Below are positions 2,580-29,740 of a stretch of DNA of 32,640 bases, piece after piece; positions within the stretch are counted from its first letter, which is position 1; the number at the start of each line of letters is the position of its first letter. The stretch lies in NCBI GenBank assembly GCA_900316955.1, contig ONEX01000028.1, positions 1 through 32,640 on the forward strand, written 5' to 3'. Made by a program: the position numbers and the translations under genes. The notes under the pieces were generated by a model, which ran no database searches, had not been told where the DNA came from, and saw nothing but the letters and a program-made list of their open reading frames with translations. The stretch is from an uncultured Bacteroidales bacterium. Its GTDB lineage: Bacteria; Bacteroidota; Bacteroidia; Bacteroidales; UBA932.

Positions 2580-5027
2580 TTAAATGTGACGAATCTTAGC
2601 ATATTTCAATAGTAAAATTTTATCGCCAAATTCTTCAAATGCAATATCTGCCTTGATATCCGGCACTTCGCCCGATAGTTTTAGGACTTTTCCAACTCCA
2701 AAACGGTTGTGTTCGATCCGGTCGCCCACGTGGAAGCTGGACATGGGGTCCGGGGTGAATTCCGCATCCGGCACCTTGGGCGGCAACGGCCTGTTCAACA
2801 GGGCCTCCCGGCTAGTCACCCGCGGTGTCCCAACAGGACTAACCGTTCCGCCGGTCACAACCCTATTTGTCCGGACGGGCATCCCGTTCCTGTCATTCCG
2901 AGCGGCCACCGGCCGCGAAGGAATCTCTCTCCCCCCCCCGAACCTTCCGAACCGGAAGCCCGGATGATCGTCGTCATCGACCGAACGCTCCACCTGGAAG
3001 TCCTCCTTGCGCAGCGGATTCTGCAGGTACTGCGGCGCGATCTCGCGGAGGAAGCGGCTGGGGGCGTTGCTTTCGTGCTTGCCGTTGCGCATGCGCGTCT
3101 GGGCGAAGGTAAGCGCCACCGCCGACTTGGCGCGCGTGAGGGCTACGTAGAACAGGCGGCGCTCCTCCTCCAACTCCTGCTCCGTGAGCATCCAGCCGCC
3201 GGATGGGAACAGGTTCTCCTCCATGCCGGACACGAAGACGTACGGGAACTCCAGGCCCTTGGCGGAATGGGCCGTCATCAGGGCCACCTTGTTGGAGGTT
3301 TCGTCATCGGCCACGTCCACGCTGGACAGCAGCGAGATGTTCTCCAGGAAGGCCGGCAGGGTGACGAGCGGGAGCTCGGAATCGGGCACTTCCCCGTGCC
3401 CGTCCTCCAGCATCTCGTTGCGGTACTCCCCTTGCACCTCCTCCACGTAGCCCGCCACGCTGTCCAGGAGTTCCTGGACATTCGCGGCGCGGGCCTGCCC
3501 CTCGATGGAGTTGTCACTCTTATAGAAAATGTACAGCCCGGACTCGTTGGCGAGGGTTTTCGCCGCCTCGTACGCGTCCGTCTGCTCCAGCGTTTCCGCC
3601 ACCTTGGCGATCATCGAGCAGAAGCCGCGGATCTTGCCGACGGCGGCGGCGCGGAGGCCGAAGGTCTCGAGGTCCTCCGCCCAGGCGGCGCCGTACAGCG
3701 AAGTTCCCTTCGCCTGCGCCGCCGCGGCGAGGGCGGCCAGCGACGTGTCGCCGATGCCCCGCGCCGGCTTGTTCACCGCTCGCTTGAACGACTCGTCGTC
3801 GTTCGTGTTCGCGGCCAGCTTGAAGTACGCCATCATGTCCTTGACCTCCGCCCGCTCGAAGAAGGAGTTCCCCGAGTAGATGATGTACGGGATGTTCCGC
3901 TTGCGGAGCTGCTCCTCCAGGGCACGGGACTGGGCGTTCGTGCGGTACAGGATGGCGAAATCCTCGTACTCGGCGTGGACTTCGTGCATGCGCTGCAGGA
4001 TCGCGGAGGCGATGAGGGCCGCCTCCTCCTGCTCCGTATAGGCGCGCACGAGCCGGATTTTCTCCCCTTCCTCGCCCATGGACACACACTGCTTGGGGAT
4101 GCGGCCTTCGTTATTGGCTATCAGGGTGTTAGCAGCGTTCACAATGTTCCGCGTGGACCGGTAGTTGCGCTCCAGGCGGAAGGTTTTCGCCTCCGGGAAG
4201 TCCTTCTTGAAGTTCAGGATGTTCTCGATCTTGGCGCCGCGGAAGGCGTAGATGGACTGGGAGTCGTCCCCCACCACGCACAGGTTCCGGTGCTGCGCCG
4301 CGAGCTTCTTGAGGATCAGGTACTGCGCGTAGTTCGTGTCCTGGTACTCGTCCACCATGATGGCGTCGAAGCGCTCGGAGATGGATGCCAGCGCGTCGGG
4401 GCTCTGCTTCAGCAGGATGTTCATGTACAGGAGGATGTCGTCGAAGTCCATCACCCCCGACTGCCGGCACAGCTGGCAGTAGGCCTGGTACACGCGGAAG
4501 ATCTCCGGCTTCTTGTGCAGGCGGTCCTCCTCGCGGTAGCCTCCGGCGCCGTTCGCGTACGGCGTGGGCGTGACCAGGTCGTTCTTCGCCTTGGAGATGC
4601 GGGCGAGCACCTCCTTGGGCTTGTACATCTTGTCGTCCAGGCCCAGCCGCTTGAGGCAGTCCTTGATGGCGCTCACCGAATCGGCCGTGTCATAGATGGT
4701 GAAGGTAGGGGGAAAGCCGATGGCGTCGGCGAACTCCCGCAGGAAGCGGATGAAGACGGAATGGAAGGTGCCCATCCAGATGCGGCGGGCCTTGCGCTCC
4801 CCCACCATCTGGCCGATGCGCTCCTTCATCTCGCCGGCCGCTTTCTTGGTAAAGGTCAGGGCCAGGATCCGGGAGGGATCCGTCCCCTGTTCGATCATAT
4901 AGGCGATTCTGGAAGTCAAGACGCGGGTCTTCCCGGAGCCTGCCCCCGCCACGATCAGCACCGGTCCTTCCACACATTCAACCGCTTGCCTCTGCTCCTT
5001 GTTCAAATCCTCGAGTATCGCGCTCAT
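2580..5027 (-). CDS. pcrA: UvrD/PcrA-type superfamily 1 DNA helicase
   Basis: A 3'-5' ATP-dependent DNA helicase for repair and for clearing protein-DNA roadblocks. All SF1A motifs are present: Walker A AGAGSGKT (residues 27-34), Ia ALTFTKKAAGEM, II VDEYQDTN, III VVGDDSQSIYAFRG, IV LERNYRST, V TAHSAKGLEFPYVFVSGMEE and VI RRLFYVALTRA. A linker follows, then a C-terminal module (FHVGDRIEHNRFGVGKV) typical of the PcrA tail. The ATG at 5027 is preferred to the in-frame TTG at 5036; the protein is 815 residues. The oddity is in the linker: it contains a stretch encoded by a genomic palindromic repeat (2892-2928) and a run of nine G on the coding strand. It is divergent from nqrA. PcrA and UvrD cannot be told apart with certainty from this reading. 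Confidence 0.93.
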   Translation of the reverse strand: MSAILEDLNKEQRQAVECVEGPVLIVAGAGSGKTRVLTSRIAYMIEQGTDPSRILALTFTKKAAGEMKERIGQMVGERKARRIWMGTFHSVFIRFLREFADAIGFPPTFTIYDTADSVSAIKDCLKRLGLDDKMYKPKEVLARISKAKNDLVTPTPYANGAGGYREEDRLHKKPEIFRVYQAYCQLCRQSGVMDFDDILLYMNILLKQSPDALASISERFDAIMVDEYQDTNYAQYLILKKLAAQHRNLCVVGDDSQSIYAFRGAKIENILNFKKDFPEAKTFRLERNYRSTRNIVNAANTLIANNEGRIPKQCVSMGEEGEKIRLVRAYTEQEEAALIASAILQRMHEVHAEYEDFAILYRTNAQSRALEEQLRKRNIPYIIYSGNSFFERAEVKDMMAYFKLAANTNDDESFKRAVNKPARGIGDTSLAALAAAAQAKGTSLYGAAWAEDLETFGLRAAAVGKIRGFCSMIAKVAETLEQTDAYEAAKTLANESGLYIFYKSDNSIEGQARAANVQELLDSVAGYVEEVQGEYRNEMLEDGHGEVPDSELPLVTLPAFLENISLLSSVDVADDETSNKVALMTAHSAKGLEFPYVFVSGMEENLFPSGGWMLTEQELEEERRLFYVALTRAKSAVALTFAQTRMRNGKHESNAPSRFLREIAPQYLQNPLRKEDFQVERSVDDDDHPGFRFGRFGGGREIPSRPVAARNDRNGMPVRTNRVVTGGTVSPVGTPRVTSREALLNRPLPPKVPDAEFTPDPMSSFHVGDRIEHNRFGVGKVLKLSGEVPDIKADIAFEEFGDKILLLKYAKIRHI
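2892..2928. repeat. Palindromic repeat GTCATTCC...GGAATCT inside pcrA
   Basis: GTCATTCCGAGCG and GAAGGAATCTCT flank a 12-base centre containing GGCC palindromes. The same outer blocks occur at 10995-11023. In the pcrA frame the element encodes REIPSRPVAARND within the flexible linker. Confidence 0.8.
2931..2939. repeat. Run of nine C inside pcrA (nine G on the coding strand)
   Basis: An uninterrupted homopolymer next to the palindromic repeat, encoding three glycines. Runs of this length are prone to slippage. A one-base change would shift the frame after the helicase motifs and remove the C-terminal module. Confidence 0.85.
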
Positions 5028-5110
5028 AGCTACCAAATCTTTTTACGAAAATAGCGAAAAAATGCGTAAATTCGCACATTATATTAAGTAAACACAAATT
5101 TACTGCAATA

Positions 5111-10994: not shown

Positions 10995-11023
10995 GTCATT
11001 CCGAGCGAAGCGAAGGAATCTCT
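10995..11023. repeat. Palindromic repeat GTCATTCC...GGAATCT at the nqrF/DUF47 junction
   Basis: The outer 13 and 12 bases are identical to those in pcrA at 2892-2928; only the centre differs (AAGC here). It fills the gap between the terminator T tract and the DUF47 gene, whose TAG stop (11022-11024) overlaps the last bases of the element. Confidence 0.8.
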
Positions 11024-17695: not shown

Positions 17696-18531
17696 AGTCC
17701 AAGGGTGGCAAAGCGGTCCGGAATCCGGACCACGAGTTTGAGACCGGCCATCGCCGGCTTGTTCCACGCGTACGGCGGCCGGCACACGGTCTGGAAGCGG
17801 CGGGCAAAGCGCGTCCACCGGTCGAAGTCCAGGGCTTTCTTCTCCGTGACGAGGCGGATCGTGCGGGCGCGCTTGTCCAGGTGGCGCTGCCACCCCTGCG
17901 CGCGCCGGTCCGCATCGGCGAAGCGATCCTGCAGCTGCTTCATGTCGAAGTAGCCAAAATGGAACAGGTATAAGTCTTTGATGATGTGTAGGTTATAGCC
18001 TTCCACGCGATGGAAGCCACTGCCCCAGCGGAGGGGCTTTCCCAGCACCGAAGCCTTCGTGTACCGGGTGCCCAGCTGCGCATAATGCCGCTGCTCCAGG
18101 AAGGGCCGGTCCCCGGTGATGTCCCCTTCCTCGCCCAGTTTCTGGCCCACGTCCAGGCCCAGGCCGGAAACGGCCGTGGGCACGTCCAGGCCTGACAGGA
18201 ACTCCGCGAGCCCGACCCCGAGTTTGGGGTCCACGGCGAGCATCTCGTCGGCGTCCGTGCCGATGACGAGGTCGTACCCGGCCGCGAACAGTCGCGCAGC
18301 CTCGTCGGAGATGCGCTCGATGCGGCCCTTGTCGGCCCGGGCCACCTGCCCGCCGACGCGGTCGCAGGGGATCACATGGGCCTTCGGGCACCAGTCGGGA
18401 AGCGGCTGGTCGCGCCCGTCCAGGAGGATGTAGAGGTTCTCCTCCCCGAGCTGGCCGCCGTACCAGGCGGTCCATTTCCGGAGGTAGAACGCGTCGCCGC
18501 GCACCATCGTTATGGCCGCGATCCGTTTCAT
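17692..18531 (-). CDS. Glycosyltransferase family 2-like protein
   Basis: 279 residues. MKRIAAITMVRGDAFYLRKW at the start and YDLVIGTDADEMLAVDP near residue 85-100 are typical of the Glyco_tranf_2_4/GT92-like branch, with the DADE acidic patch as the probable metal site. Later RVEGYNLHIIKDLYLFHFGY has the conserved histidine region. The ATG overlaps the uvrA stop by four bases, so this sugar gene is translationally coupled to a DNA-repair gene, an unusual pairing. The acceptor is unknown. Confidence 0.8.
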   Translation of the reverse strand: MKRIAAITMVRGDAFYLRKWTAWYGGQLGEENLYILLDGRDQPLPDWCPKAHVIPCDRVGGQVARADKGRIERISDEAARLFAAGYDLVIGTDADEMLAVDPKLGVGLAEFLSGLDVPTAVSGLGLDVGQKLGEEGDITGDRPFLEQRHYAQLGTRYTKASVLGKPLRWGSGFHRVEGYNLHIIKDLYLFHFGYFDMKQLQDRFADADRRAQGWQRHLDKRARTIRLVTEKKALDFDRWTRFARRFQTVCRPPYAWNKPAMAGLKLVVRIPDRFATLGL

Positions 18532-21416
18532 CCGCGCAAGTATTTGGCCGTGAATGTGTCACCCTTCGCCGCCAGGTCCTCCGGCGTGCCGGCGAAGACC
18601 ACTTCGCCGCCCCGGTCGCCCGCGTCCGGACCCAGGTCGATCACCCAGTCCGCGCTGCGGATGACGTCCAGGTTGTGCTCCACCACGACCACGGAATGGC
18701 CGCGGGAAAGCAGGGCATCGAAAGCCTTCAGGAGCTTCTCCACGTCGTAGAAATGGAGGCCCGTCGTGGGCTCGTCGAACATGAACAGGATCTTGTCCTT
18801 GCGCGGCTTGTCGTCGTTCTTGCTCAGGCTCAGGAAGTAAGCGAGCTTGATGCGCTGGCTCTCGCCGCCCGACAGGGTGCTGGAGGGCTGGCCCAGCTTG
18901 ATGTAGCCGAGGCCCACGTCCACGAGCGGCTGCAGCTGCCCGGCGATGGACTTGGCGATGTCCTCGGGCTGCGCGGAGAAGAAGGCGATGGCCTCCTCCA
19001 CGCTCATGTTCAGGATGTCGTCGATGTTCTTGTCCTTGTACCGGACTTCCAGGATCTCCGGCTTGAAGCGCTTGCCGCCGCAGGACTCGCACACCATGGT
19101 GACATCGGCCATGAACTGCATGCCGATCTTCACGAAACCGTCGCCCTGGCATTCCGGGCAGCGGCCGCCTTCCTGGTTGAAGGAGAAGAAGGACGGGGTG
19201 AAGCCGTTGATCTTCGCGAACTGCTGGTCGCTCAGGAGCTTGCGAATGTCGTCATAGACCTTCAGGTAGGTGACGGCGTTGGAGCGGGAGCTCTTGCCGA
19301 TGGGGTTCTGGTCCACGTACTCTACGCGGGTGACGCGGTCCAGGTTGCCGGACAGGCCCTTGAAGGTGCCGGGCAGGTCGCCGGTCTCGTTGATGCGGCG
19401 GTGCAGGGCCGGGAACAGGATGTCGCCGACGAGCGAGGACTTGCCGCTCCCGGACACGCCGGTGACGACCGTCAGCACGCCCAGCGGGAACTGCACGTCG
19501 ATGTCCTTGAGGTTGTTCTGCATCGCCCCGTTCACGGTGATGGAGTACTGCCAAGGCCGCTTCGTGCGGACGTACGGCTTCCGTTCGCCGGTGAGGTACT
19601 GGAGGGTGAGCGAACGCTTCAGTTCCTCCGGGGTAAACTGCTCCACAACGCCCTGGAAGACCACTTCCCCACCATGGACGCCGGCTTTCGGGCCCATGTC
19701 GATGAGGAGGTCCGCCGCGCGGATAATCTCCGGGTCGTGCTCCACCACGACGACGGTGTTGCCGATGTCGCGGAGGCGCTTGAGGACCGCGATGAGGCGG
19801 TCGGTGTCGCGGGGGTGCAGGCCGATGGACGGCTCGTCCAGGATGTACATGGACCCGACCAGCGAGCTGCCGAGCGCGGTCACGAGGTTCACGCGCTGGC
19901 TTTCGCCGCCGGAGAGGGTGTTCATCGCGCGGCTCAGGGTGAGGTACCCGAGGCCCACGTCCTGGATGCAGTGCAGCCGGAAGACGATCTCGTCGATGCA
20001 CTTGCCCGCGATGCCGCGCTCGTAGTCCGACAGCCGGACGGTGTCGAAGAACGCGAGGAGCTCGTCGATGGTCATCGACAGGAGCTCGTGGATGTTCTTC
20101 CCGCCCACGCGGACGTAAAGCGCCTCCTTCCGGAGCCGGCTGCCGCCGCAGGCGTGGCAGGTGGTCCGGCCGGAATAGCGGCTGAGCATGTATTTGTACT
20201 GGATCTTGTAGCGGTTCTGGTTGACCCACTCGAAGAACTCGTCGATGCCGACGATGGCGCTCTCGTCCATCACGCCGTTGCTCCGGGCGGTCCAGAGGGT
20301 CTTTTTCTGCGCTTCCGTGAGCTTGCAGTACGGGGTGAAGACGGGGATGTCGTACTTCTCCGCGTTCTTGACCACGAGGTCCTTGAACCAGCTCATCTTG
20401 TCGCCGCGCCAGCAGGCGACGGCGCCGTCGTAGATGGTCTTGGTCTTGTCCGGAACGACGAGGTCCTCACTGATACCGATGATCTTTCCCAGGCCGCCGC
20501 ACGTGGGGCACGCCCCCAGCGGGCTGTTGAAGCTGAACAGGTACTCGTCCGGCTCGCGGAAAGTCATCCCGTCGAGCTCGAACCTGGAACAGTACGCCTT
20601 CCGCTTCCCGTCCAGCACGATGGACATATCCCCCTCCCCCTTGTCGAACGCCGTCTGCACGGAATCCAGCAGGCGCGTCCGGAGGTCATCCATGACGGTT
20701 GGTGAGCCTGTCGAACCACCGTCATGCCCGACGGTTGGTGAGCTTGTCGAACCACCGTCATTCCCGGCCTGACCGGGAATCTTCGCGCGGTCCACCAGCA
20801 AATGCAAGTCCTCCGGGTAGTGCCCGTCCATCTGCATCACGTCCTCGATGCGGAGGACCTCCTGGGTGCCCAGGTCGAAGAATCGGCCGTAGCCTTCCTC
20901 CTTGAGCTGGAGCATGAGCTCGACCTTGTCCTTGCGGTCCTTCCAGCGGATGTCGGAAAGGATGTAGACCGTGTGCGCCTCGCCGTCGAAGATGTCGCGG
21001 AGGACGTCCTGGACGGTATGGGCCTTCACTTCCAGCCCGCTCACGGGGGAATAGGTACGGCCGATGCGGGCGAAGAGGAGCCGCAGGAAGTCGTAGATTT
21101 CCGTGGTGGTGGCGACGGTGGAACGGGGGTTCCGGATGTTCACCTTCTGCTCGATGGCGATGGCCGGCGGGATGCCCTCGATCATCTCCACGTCGGGCTT
21201 GGACATGCGGCCCAGGAACTGGCGGGCGTAGGACGACAGGCTCTCGGCGAACCGGCGCTGGCCCTCGGCGAACAGCGTGTCGAACGCGAGGGACGACTTC
21301 CCGCTCCCGGAGATGCCCGTGACCACCACGAGCCGGTTCCGCGGGATCTCCACCGTTATGTCCTTGAGGTTGTTGACCTTCGCCCTTCGTATGATGATAT
21401 TCCCTTCTGCTGGCAT
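18528..21416 (-). CDS. uvrA: Excinuclease ABC subunit A
   Basis: Damage-recognition ATPase of nucleotide excision repair. It has two ABC modules: Walker A GISGSGKSS near residue 34 and GVSGSGKSS in the second half, with signatures LSGGESQRVNL and LSGGESQRIKL. The zinc module CPECQGDG...CESCGGKRF is intact, but the first zinc site is incomplete: CPTCGGLG is present while the partner CxxC is reduced to a single Cys (AYCSRF). The ATG at 21416 is chosen over a TTG at 21422; length 962. A stretch at about residues 212-241 (AKIPGQAGND then two 12-residue repeats) is encoded by genomic repeats inserted in frame. Four sugar genes follow in the same unit. Confidence 0.95.
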   Translation of the reverse strand: MPAEGNIIIRRAKVNNLKDITVEIPRNRLVVVTGISGSGKSSLAFDTLFAEGQRRFAESLSSYARQFLGRMSKPDVEMIEGIPPAIAIEQKVNIRNPRSTVATTTEIYDFLRLLFARIGRTYSPVSGLEVKAHTVQDVLRDIFDGEAHTVYILSDIRWKDRKDKVELMLQLKEEGYGRFFDLGTQEVLRIEDVMQMDGHYPEDLHLLVDRAKIPGQAGNDGGSTSSPTVGHDGGSTGSPTVMDDLRTRLLDSVQTAFDKGEGDMSIVLDGKRKAYCSRFELDGMTFREPDEYLFSFNSPLGACPTCGGLGKIIGISEDLVVPDKTKTIYDGAVACWRGDKMSWFKDLVVKNAEKYDIPVFTPYCKLTEAQKKTLWTARSNGVMDESAIVGIDEFFEWVNQNRYKIQYKYMLSRYSGRTTCHACGGSRLRKEALYVRVGGKNIHELLSMTIDELLAFFDTVRLSDYERGIAGKCIDEIVFRLHCIQDVGLGYLTLSRAMNTLSGGESQRVNLVTALGSSLVGSMYILDEPSIGLHPRDTDRLIAVLKRLRDIGNTVVVVEHDPEIIRAADLLIDMGPKAGVHGGEVVFQGVVEQFTPEELKRSLTLQYLTGERKPYVRTKRPWQYSITVNGAMQNNLKDIDVQFPLGVLTVVTGVSGSGKSSLVGDILFPALHRRINETGDLPGTFKGLSGNLDRVTRVEYVDQNPIGKSSRSNAVTYLKVYDDIRKLLSDQQFAKINGFTPSFFSFNQEGGRCPECQGDGFVKIGMQFMADVTMVCESCGGKRFKPEILEVRYKDKNIDDILNMSVEEAIAFFSAQPEDIAKSIAGQLQPLVDVGLGYIKLGQPSSTLSGGESQRIKLAYFLSLSKNDDKPRKDKILFMFDEPTTGLHFYDVEKLLKAFDALLSRGHSVVVVEHNLDVIRSADWVIDLGPDAGDRGGEVVFAGTPEDLAAKGDTFTAKYLRG
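20694..20764. repeat. Two tandem 36-base units inside uvrA
   Basis: The units start at 20694 and 20730 with period 36 and differ at only a few positions. Each begins GACGGTTGGTGAGC and ends CGAACCACCGTCAT, making a near palindrome. The unit length is a multiple of three, giving NDGGSTSSPTVG and HDGGSTGSPTVM in UvrA. Confidence 0.9.
20757..20783. repeat. Palindrome GTCATTCCCGG...CCGGGAATCT inside uvrA
   Basis: ATTCCCGG (20760-20767) is the reverse complement of CCGGGAAT (20773-20780). The outer GTCATTCC and GGAATCT match the elements at 2892 and 10995. On the uvrA strand it encodes KIPGQAGND, the same element frame and direction as in pcrA (EIPSRPVAARND). Confidence 0.8.
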
Positions 21417-21434
21417 GTCCAAAAGATTAGCTTA

Positions 21435-22118: not shown

Positions 22119-22341
22119 TGTACAAGTCTAGCTTGTACAACGAAATGTGGCTATGACACGGTTTCCCACGTACAAGTCTCCTGGAATAGGCGCTACAGTG
22201 GCTGAAAGGGCGGAGGCATGAACATAGAATCCTCCACACAAGCACATCGACTTGTACAAGCGAGACTTGTACAGGCATAGAATGAGGATAAGATAGGGGG
22301 CCTGGAACCCTCGAGTTCCATGTACACTGCCGATGTGTACA
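22119..22341. repeat. Cluster of GTAC-centred inverted repeats
   Basis: TGTACAAG-TCTAG-CTTGTACA is a perfect 8-bp hairpin at 22119-22139. GACTTGTACA occurs at 22249 and 22264, its reverse complement with one change at 22169, and TGTACA again at 22321 and 22336. The 463-base gene-free stretch 21985-22447 contains these sites and the partial duplication; no convincing gene was found in it. Confidence 0.65.
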
Positions 22342-28690: not shown

Positions 28691-28697
28691 CAAGTGT

Positions 28698-28780
28698 CGA
28701 TGGTGGTCCATGAAGTGGGACACCGTCGGCGTTTTACCCCCATTATCGCTGATGGTGGTCCCGTGGATGGACCACCATCG
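28698..28780. repeat. Two competing hairpins sharing one arm
   Basis: CGATGGTGGTCCA (28698-28710) is the exact reverse complement of 28768-28780. GATGGTGGTCC at 28751-28761 can pair with the same right arm (28769-28779) to give an 11-bp hairpin with a seven-base loop. It lies between the esterase and the HARE-HTH-like gene in their transcribed spacer. Confidence 0.75.
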
Positions 28781-28795
28781 GCACATCTCACACGA

Positions 28796-29045: not shown

Positions 29046-29088
29046 GTTGCCCGTGGCGTCGCTGCCGCAGGCTCCATGACAGCTTTCA
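29046..29088 (+). repeat. 43-base direct repeat, left copy
   Basis: 43 bases with five differences from 29698-29740; the last stretch CTGCCGCAGGCTC.ATGACAG is nearly identical. With the right copy it brackets the gene at 29157-29564 and its candidate antisense RNA. Confidence 0.8.
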
Positions 29089-29697: not shown

Positions 29698-29740
29698 GTT
29701 GTCCGCGGCGGCACTGCCGCAGGCTCAATGACAGCTTTCA
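29698..29740 (+). repeat. 43-base direct repeat, right copy
   Basis: Second copy of the element at 29046-29088, same orientation, 38 of 43 bases identical. Confidence 0.8.

Follow-up and report, generated by a model that had tools for sequence, protein, structure and literature searches.

Why does the uvrA gene of an uncultured Bacteroidales bacterium contain, in its reading frame, a short palindrome that also occurs inside pcrA and between genes? The question is raised by contig ONEX01000028.1 of assembly GCA_900316955.1, which was analyzed over its whole length of 32,640 nucleotides (referred to below as the window) and which forms contig C5 of a 3.13-Mb genome in 38 contigs. We found that the palindrome belongs to a kind of repeat that is already known, being a variant of the CGTC-tagged repetitive extragenic palindrome (REP), and that it is dispersed over the genome, both between genes and in frame within them. 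There is good reason to be confident, though not certain, that this variant spread, probably as single-stranded DNA (ssDNA) and via a Y1/HUH enzyme acting in trans, and that the copies located within genes are tolerated in loops and linkers.

The uvrA gene is encoded by the minus strand (18528 to 21422). Its REP, which carries a C/TGTC tag on the plus strand, extends from 20757 to 20783 and, in the minus-strand frame of the gene, encodes KIPGQAGND. It is joined to two tandem 36-bp units (20685 to 20720 and 20721 to 20756, plus strand; 89% alike), which are read as GGSTSSPTVGHDGGSTGSPTV. Each unit contains GGTGAGCYTGTCGAACCACC, and the second opens with GTCATGCCCGAC, which corresponds to the left arm of the GTCATGCC sister repeat. 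A first-pass annotation of the window had described these units as tandem copies of a near-palindrome; the tandem copies are real, but the palindromic fold is weak (-7.2 kcal/mol). The core of the 36-mer had nine matches in the genome with up to three mismatches. The pcrA-type helicase gene (2580 to 5036, minus strand) contains a longer variant of the REP (2892 to 2928, plus strand), which combines a 5-bp outer stem with an inner GC-rich hairpin and is read on the minus strand as EIPSRPVAARND. A third copy, of the GTCATTCCGAGCGAAGCGAAGGAATC type, is intergenic (10995 to 11023, plus strand), between genes named nqrF and DUF47 by the first-pass annotation. The pattern search located the outer blocks GTCATTCC...GGAATC at 2892-2925, 10995-11020, and 20757-20781, and translation recovered both peptides in the same phase, in agreement with the original description of these three copies.

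Searching the genome with the pattern GTCATTCCN{4,34}GGAATC returned 80 matches, 40 on each strand, versus none for the reversed control, as expected for the genome-wide element postulated at first pass. Removal of nested matches left 77 copies. The sister subfamily, GTCATGCC...GGCATC, had 28 matches (2 in its control), and a joint pattern, GTCATNCC...GGNATC, had 134 (4 in its control). Across 37 genomes of the genus, including that of the window, the joint pattern was found 4 to 134 times and its controls 1 to 10 times; the genomes with the lowest counts are thus at background. At least 113 stretches from GTDB contigs contained the exact 25-mer GTCATTCCCGGCTTGACCGGGAATC. Among the matches listed (80), 51 had Bacteroidales or Bacteroidia titles, many of them from the rumen, 10 were Fibrobacter, and 19 had other titles ranging from Sphingomonadaceae to TM6.

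The copies share a common anatomy. The tag is CGTC in 48 of the 77 copies, TGTC in 26, and another tetranucleotide in 3. Fifty-three copies are 25 nt long, with an 8-nt stem starting with AT and a 5-nt loop, mostly CTTGA; the stem is ATTCCCGG or ATTCCGGG, once ATTCCCGA, and is fully paired in 51 of them. The remaining 24 copies differ in length, some having only the 5-bp outer stem. The tail is CTC in 44 copies, CTA in 16, CTT in 8, and CTG in 4. The fetched segments held 90 copies of the subfamilies, which formed 15 pairs of neighbors lying within 60 nt of each other; the tags were inside in 12 pairs and outside in 2, and one pair was in tandem. These traits (tag, stem, loop, tail, and pairing) were compared with those described for CGTC REPs by Di Nocera, De Gregorio, and Rocco (2013; PMC3733652).

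Coding frames were called with a codon model for which 22 stretches of the window served as training data, two earlier classifiers having been dropped, one for scoring antisense frames about as high as coding frames and the other for locking onto antisense frames. The model placed 24 of the 77 copies in supported open frames. After correction, which removed C22:96103 as a chance match and added the PcrA copy, the final tally was again 24 copies, located in 22 genes. Two candidates, C22:96103 (read as GFRVTDQEGND) and L283, were rejected by judgement as chance matches. According to Pfam and NCBIfam models, the interrupted genes encode repair proteins (PcrA, UvrA, a second UvrA-type protein, RecN with two copies, and an AlkD-like DNA-alkylation-repair protein), methionyl- and cysteinyl-tRNA ligases, MurB, MtaB, two nucleotidyltransferases, an endonuclease/exonuclease/phosphatase (EEP), and OEP, M20 and M16 peptidase, A2M, GH3, MFS, and kelch proteins; L006, L023, and L028 are weakly annotated or unannotated. 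In 17 of the 22 genes, the insert is spanned or flanked by family models. In the sister GTCATGCC subfamily, 15 of the 28 copies were in supported frames and, L283 being left aside, added six genes, for an epimerase/dehydratase, a CYTH protein, a sigma-54 regulator, shikimate kinase (the copy sitting beyond the kinase domain), MetH, and one unannotated open reading frame (ORF). Thus, the copy count and the frames bear out the proposal of a repeat inserted in frame in pcrA and uvrA, but the list of two genes was incomplete, since at least 22 are hit.

The same window-trained codon model, here applied to genomes outside its training data, supported the frames of 24 of 122 exact copies in the other GTDB stretches (at least 113). 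Twenty-two of these 24 ORFs were scanned. UvrA (L211) and a nucleotidyltransferase (L215) carried the element at the same sites as here; the others included DNA polymerase I (two copies), a class I tRNA synthetase, a tRNA pseudouridine synthase, a tRNA methyltransferase-type protein, and MurB. One phase, giving peptides of the IPG.. or VIP.. type, was favored in 19 of the 24 in-gene copies here and in 19 of the 24 in the named genomes (hand tally).

Mapping of the inserts on known structures, which had been suggested at first pass, was performed by alignment for UvrA and PcrA. In UvrA, the alignment with the Thermotoga maritima protein (3PIH) has a gap between query residues 213 and 249, falling between residues 208 and 216 of 3PIH, so that query residues 214-248 replace seven residues (209-215). 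In PcrA, the alignment with 1PJR has a gap bordered by query residues 678 and 764, opposite 1PJR residues 653 and 669; the insert occupies the linker between UvrD_C, which ends at residue 646, and a Tudor domain, which starts at residue 770. Both inserts are located where solved relatives vary in length. Judging from alignments and domain borders, the insertion sites are predicted to be loops or linkers.

The same sites were compared in other genomes. UvrA is 94-95% identical to the window protein in G003, the closest relative searched, 86% in L211, and 76-78% in G005 and G019. The UvrA REP is common to G000, G003, and L211, each with a different neighboring sequence. The 36-bp units have no counterpart in the UvrA of G003, which has a CGTC-ATGGCCGA hairpin at this place, or in that of L211, which has another sequence. 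No insert was detected in the alignment for UvrA of G005 and G019, and the aligned same-genus sequences other than G003 lack the KIPGQAGND peptide, as anticipated if the peptide originates from the repeat. We queried G003 with 18 gene segments and found 16 (the MFS and kelch genes were not found). The same element was present in six, encoding the nucleotidyltransferase, the AlkD-like protein, OEP, the second UvrA-type protein, methionyl-tRNA ligase, and GH3, although the number of units in OEP and in the second UvrA-type protein differs between the genomes. The A2M gene has one REP unit with another stem, and the M16 gene has GTCATTTC...GAAATC arms only, which the hairpin scan did not recognize. 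Eight genes of G003 lack the element, namely those for RecN (both sites), MurB, M20, EEP, the second nucleotidyltransferase, cysteinyl-tRNA ligase, MtaB, and the dehydratase; the RecN sites are also empty in G005 and G019. The PcrA linker of G017 contains a similar copy with 3 differences, that of G003 has GTCATTTC...GAAATC arms, and that of G019 carries two other tagged hairpins; the MFS site of G019 is likewise occupied by two other tagged hairpins. Presence, absence, and exchange of the repeats between sister species were thus directly observed.

Some candidates were rejected in this comparison. Other REPs were suspected at the methionyl-tRNA ligase and MtaB sites of G005 and G019, where the peptides resembled those of other REPs, but a scan for tagged hairpins detected none at these sites. 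The hairpin-like matches of MurB and RfbB in G003 fall within conserved host sequence and are considered to be due to chance. In G003 MtaB, the stretch that aligns with the second REP is possibly what is left of a decayed copy. Two further observations concern repeated peptides. In L036 and L038, near position 1501, the linkers read as a series of several repeats (PVVRQAHQP, VPEPVEGP, EIPGQARN, PDQVGND), as though palindromes had furnished the entire linker. In G019, UvrA (L041) and A2M (L305), which are unrelated, share another in-frame repeated peptide, ASLRDPVRANAPxRVS.

On the favored reading, the element is a miniature mobile sequence of 28 bp that forms a hairpin and represents a variant of the CGTC-tagged REP; it probably spreads as ssDNA via a Y1/HUH-type transposase provided in trans. 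The majority of the copies are located outside supported coding frames. Copies entering genes would survive if they keep the frame, contain no stop codon, and fall in a surface loop or an interdomain linker, a single insert adding approximately 9 residues and joined repeats up to approximately 30, presumably with near-neutral consequences for the host protein. The phase reading IPGQAGND or VIPGLTGNL is kept most often, and a permissive site, once opened, would gain or exchange further repeats. Several points weigh against this explanation. The codon model missed PcrA and admitted at least two chance matches, one per subfamily, and L006, L023, L028, and L278 had weak or no family support. The phase preference (38 of 48 copies, binomial p 3e-5 versus one half) includes sites shared by descent and is relative to an approximate expectation, the number of open phases depending on the loop. 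At several empty sites the host linker also differs, so that these sites do not reveal a clean insertion into unchanged sequence. The tail and the orientation of the pairs depart from those typical of CGTC REPs. Finally, neither a cognate transposase nor a target-site duplication was demonstrated.

Coding copies could alternatively be kept for the DNA or RNA hairpin itself, acting in mRNA stability, attenuation, or protein binding, rather than as tolerated insertions. In the seven genes sharing elements between G000 and G003, third codon positions differ at 3 of 93 positions in the elements and at 159 of 983 in the flanks (Fisher p 2e-4; only sites still recognized as shared are covered), and some sites hold repeats that are different and nonetheless palindromic (A2M in G003; PcrA and MFS in G019). 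The low third-position difference may reflect constraint, but recent insertion or conversion between copies would look alike, and eight of the 16 genes lack such a hairpin in G003. We regard retention for the hairpin as unlikely.

Mobilization by RAYTs (REP-associated tyrosine transposases) of the same genome, according to the REPtron model established for GTAG REPs, was considered since the genome contains four Y1-transposase genes and one edge fragment. The latter, at the contig edge (2 to 367, plus strand), has no Pfam match on its own, but the first-pass annotation was right in recognizing it as RAYT-like, since it corresponds to a RAYT-type C-terminus and aligns with a Y1-transposase protein encoded elsewhere in the genome (29% identity, E 5e-11). 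No inverted repeat of 9 or more was found in positions 1-900 of the window. Y1-transposase matches were obtained in 27 of the 37 genomes searched. We examined 19 loci, the four of this genome and 15 from other genomes of the genus (49 Y1 matches in 23 genus genomes). None of the 19 was flanked on both sides by the element. A single degenerate copy was present approximately 1.3 kb from one locus (L344), and another locus had a pattern match inside the transposase gene, while at least 9 of the 19 were bracketed on both sides by the same unrelated palindrome. Copy number was not significantly correlated with the number of Y1 genes in 23 genomes (Spearman 0.30, p 0.16; 0.15, p 0.49 per Mb), and seven of these had no Y1 match and yet 6 to 33 pattern matches, the higher values exceeding the controls. 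The same absence of CGTC units around RAYTs is reported in PMC3733652. These results argue against the link between the edge fragment and the spread of the repeat put forward at first pass, and render mobilization by the RAYTs of this genome quite improbable. The bracketing palindrome differs by locus (L141, L142, L335, L338, L339, L341, L345, L346, and L347), L343 sharing that of L142. In the window, two long palindromes of the GATGGTGGTCCA...TGGACCACCATC type form a pair at positions 28694-28784 and resemble those bracketing the L141 Y1 gene; they are perhaps the true REP family of the L141 RAYT.

According to a speculation of Di Nocera et al. (2013), insertions in repair genes could be kept because they alter repair and generate mutator lineages. 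Five of the 28 interrupted genes are repair genes (PcrA, the two UvrA proteins, RecN, and the AlkD-like protein), with p values of 0.001, 0.012, and 0.07 if 3, 5, or 8% of genes are assumed to be of this kind, all genes counting equally whatever their length. DNA polymerase I contains two copies in another genome, and PMC3733652 also stresses the repair category. However, PcrA and UvrA were the reason for choosing this finding, and leaving them out reduces the count to 3 of 26 (p 0.04, 0.14, and 0.35). In addition, tRNA, cell-wall, and transport proteins are hit too, and the RecN sites are empty in three relatives. The enrichment in repair genes is suggestive only, and selection for mutator lineages appears very doubtful. 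Chance, compositional similarity, or an assembly artefact can practically be dismissed despite the fragmentation into 38 contigs, because reversed patterns gave 0 and 4 matches versus 80 and 134 and because named genomes that were assembled independently carry the element at the same sites (L211 UvrA and L215 nucleotidyltransferase).

A tentative extension of tolerated insertion, which we consider possible but would not favor, is that the REPs are still moving in the genus by means of some enzyme and that permissive sites in repair and housekeeping proteins (UvrA, PcrA, A2M, and MFS) are taken over or rewritten time after time by different palindromes. Because of this re-occupation, the repeats might provide the whole genus with ready-made loop peptides, selection favoring the IPGQAGND/VIPGLTGNL phase, and the tags-inward pairs might mark a CGTC lineage with its own mode of spreading. 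Palindromes encoding protein segments were known first from Rickettsia and then, in 2013, from scattered species of several phyla. The present data add a genus whose coding sites can be compared with the insertion present, absent, or exchanged, with sixteen genes offering matched sites (same, different, or no repeat) between two sister species. Both the agent that mobilizes CGTC REPs and the effect of repair-gene insertions on the host, questions dating from 2013, are now accessible to direct comparison.

The window contains other repeats. At 22119-22273, there are inverted repeats that have CTTGTACAAG-type cores and a spacing of 93 nt, and a 43-nt direct repeat (88% identical) is present at 29046-29088 and 29698-29740, the copies being 652 nt apart.

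How does the element compare with known systems? Like GTAG REPs and RAYT REPtrons, it is a short hairpin repeat occurring in pairs, in a genome that also encodes Y1 transposases; unlike them, it carries a C/TGTC tag, and the RAYTs found here are bracketed by other palindromes. The analogy with Rickettsia palindromic elements (RPE) is closer than the first-pass annotation knew, because PMC3733652 equates RPE-4 and RPE-6 with CGTC repeats, naming uvrB and dnaE as interrupted genes of R. conorii. The likeness derives from that equation, not from sequence comparison, and concerns a different phylum. RPE-1 and other longer Rickettsia palindromes (approximately 150 bp, PMC10969869) likewise indicate that proteins tolerate an in-frame palindrome, but they form another family.

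The closest system is that of the CGTC REPs, which PMC3733652 describes as having, at one end, an unpaired CGTC tag (often TGTC or CCTC), an 8-9 bp stem starting with AT, a 4-5 nt loop, most often a CCA tail, and pairs with the tags mostly outward (head to head, HH) and rarely inward (tail to tail, TT). According to the same paper, they occur in five phyla, including Bacteroidetes, and GTAG and CGTC REPs taken together were found inside uvrA/excinuclease, UvrD/Rep-type, and other repair genes and inside tRNA synthetase genes. The view that insertion in pcrA and uvrA had not been described for Bacteroidales is to be qualified. The occurrence of CGTC REPs in Bacteroidetes and, separately, of REPs in uvrA and UvrD/Rep-type genes was already in print in 2013, but our search of titles and abstract openings in one paper collection retrieved no report of these insertions in this group. 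A search with the letters of the element gave results that looked unrelated, judged by title. The element shares with the published CGTC REPs the C/TGTC tag, the AT-starting 8-bp stem, the 5-nt loop, the intragenic copies, and the absence of flanked RAYTs. It is called a variant because the tail is CTC instead of the usual CCA and because the pairs are mostly TT rather than HH. It differs further in comprising subfamilies of other lengths, such as that of the PcrA copy, and in that presence, absence, and exchange are here resolved between sister species.

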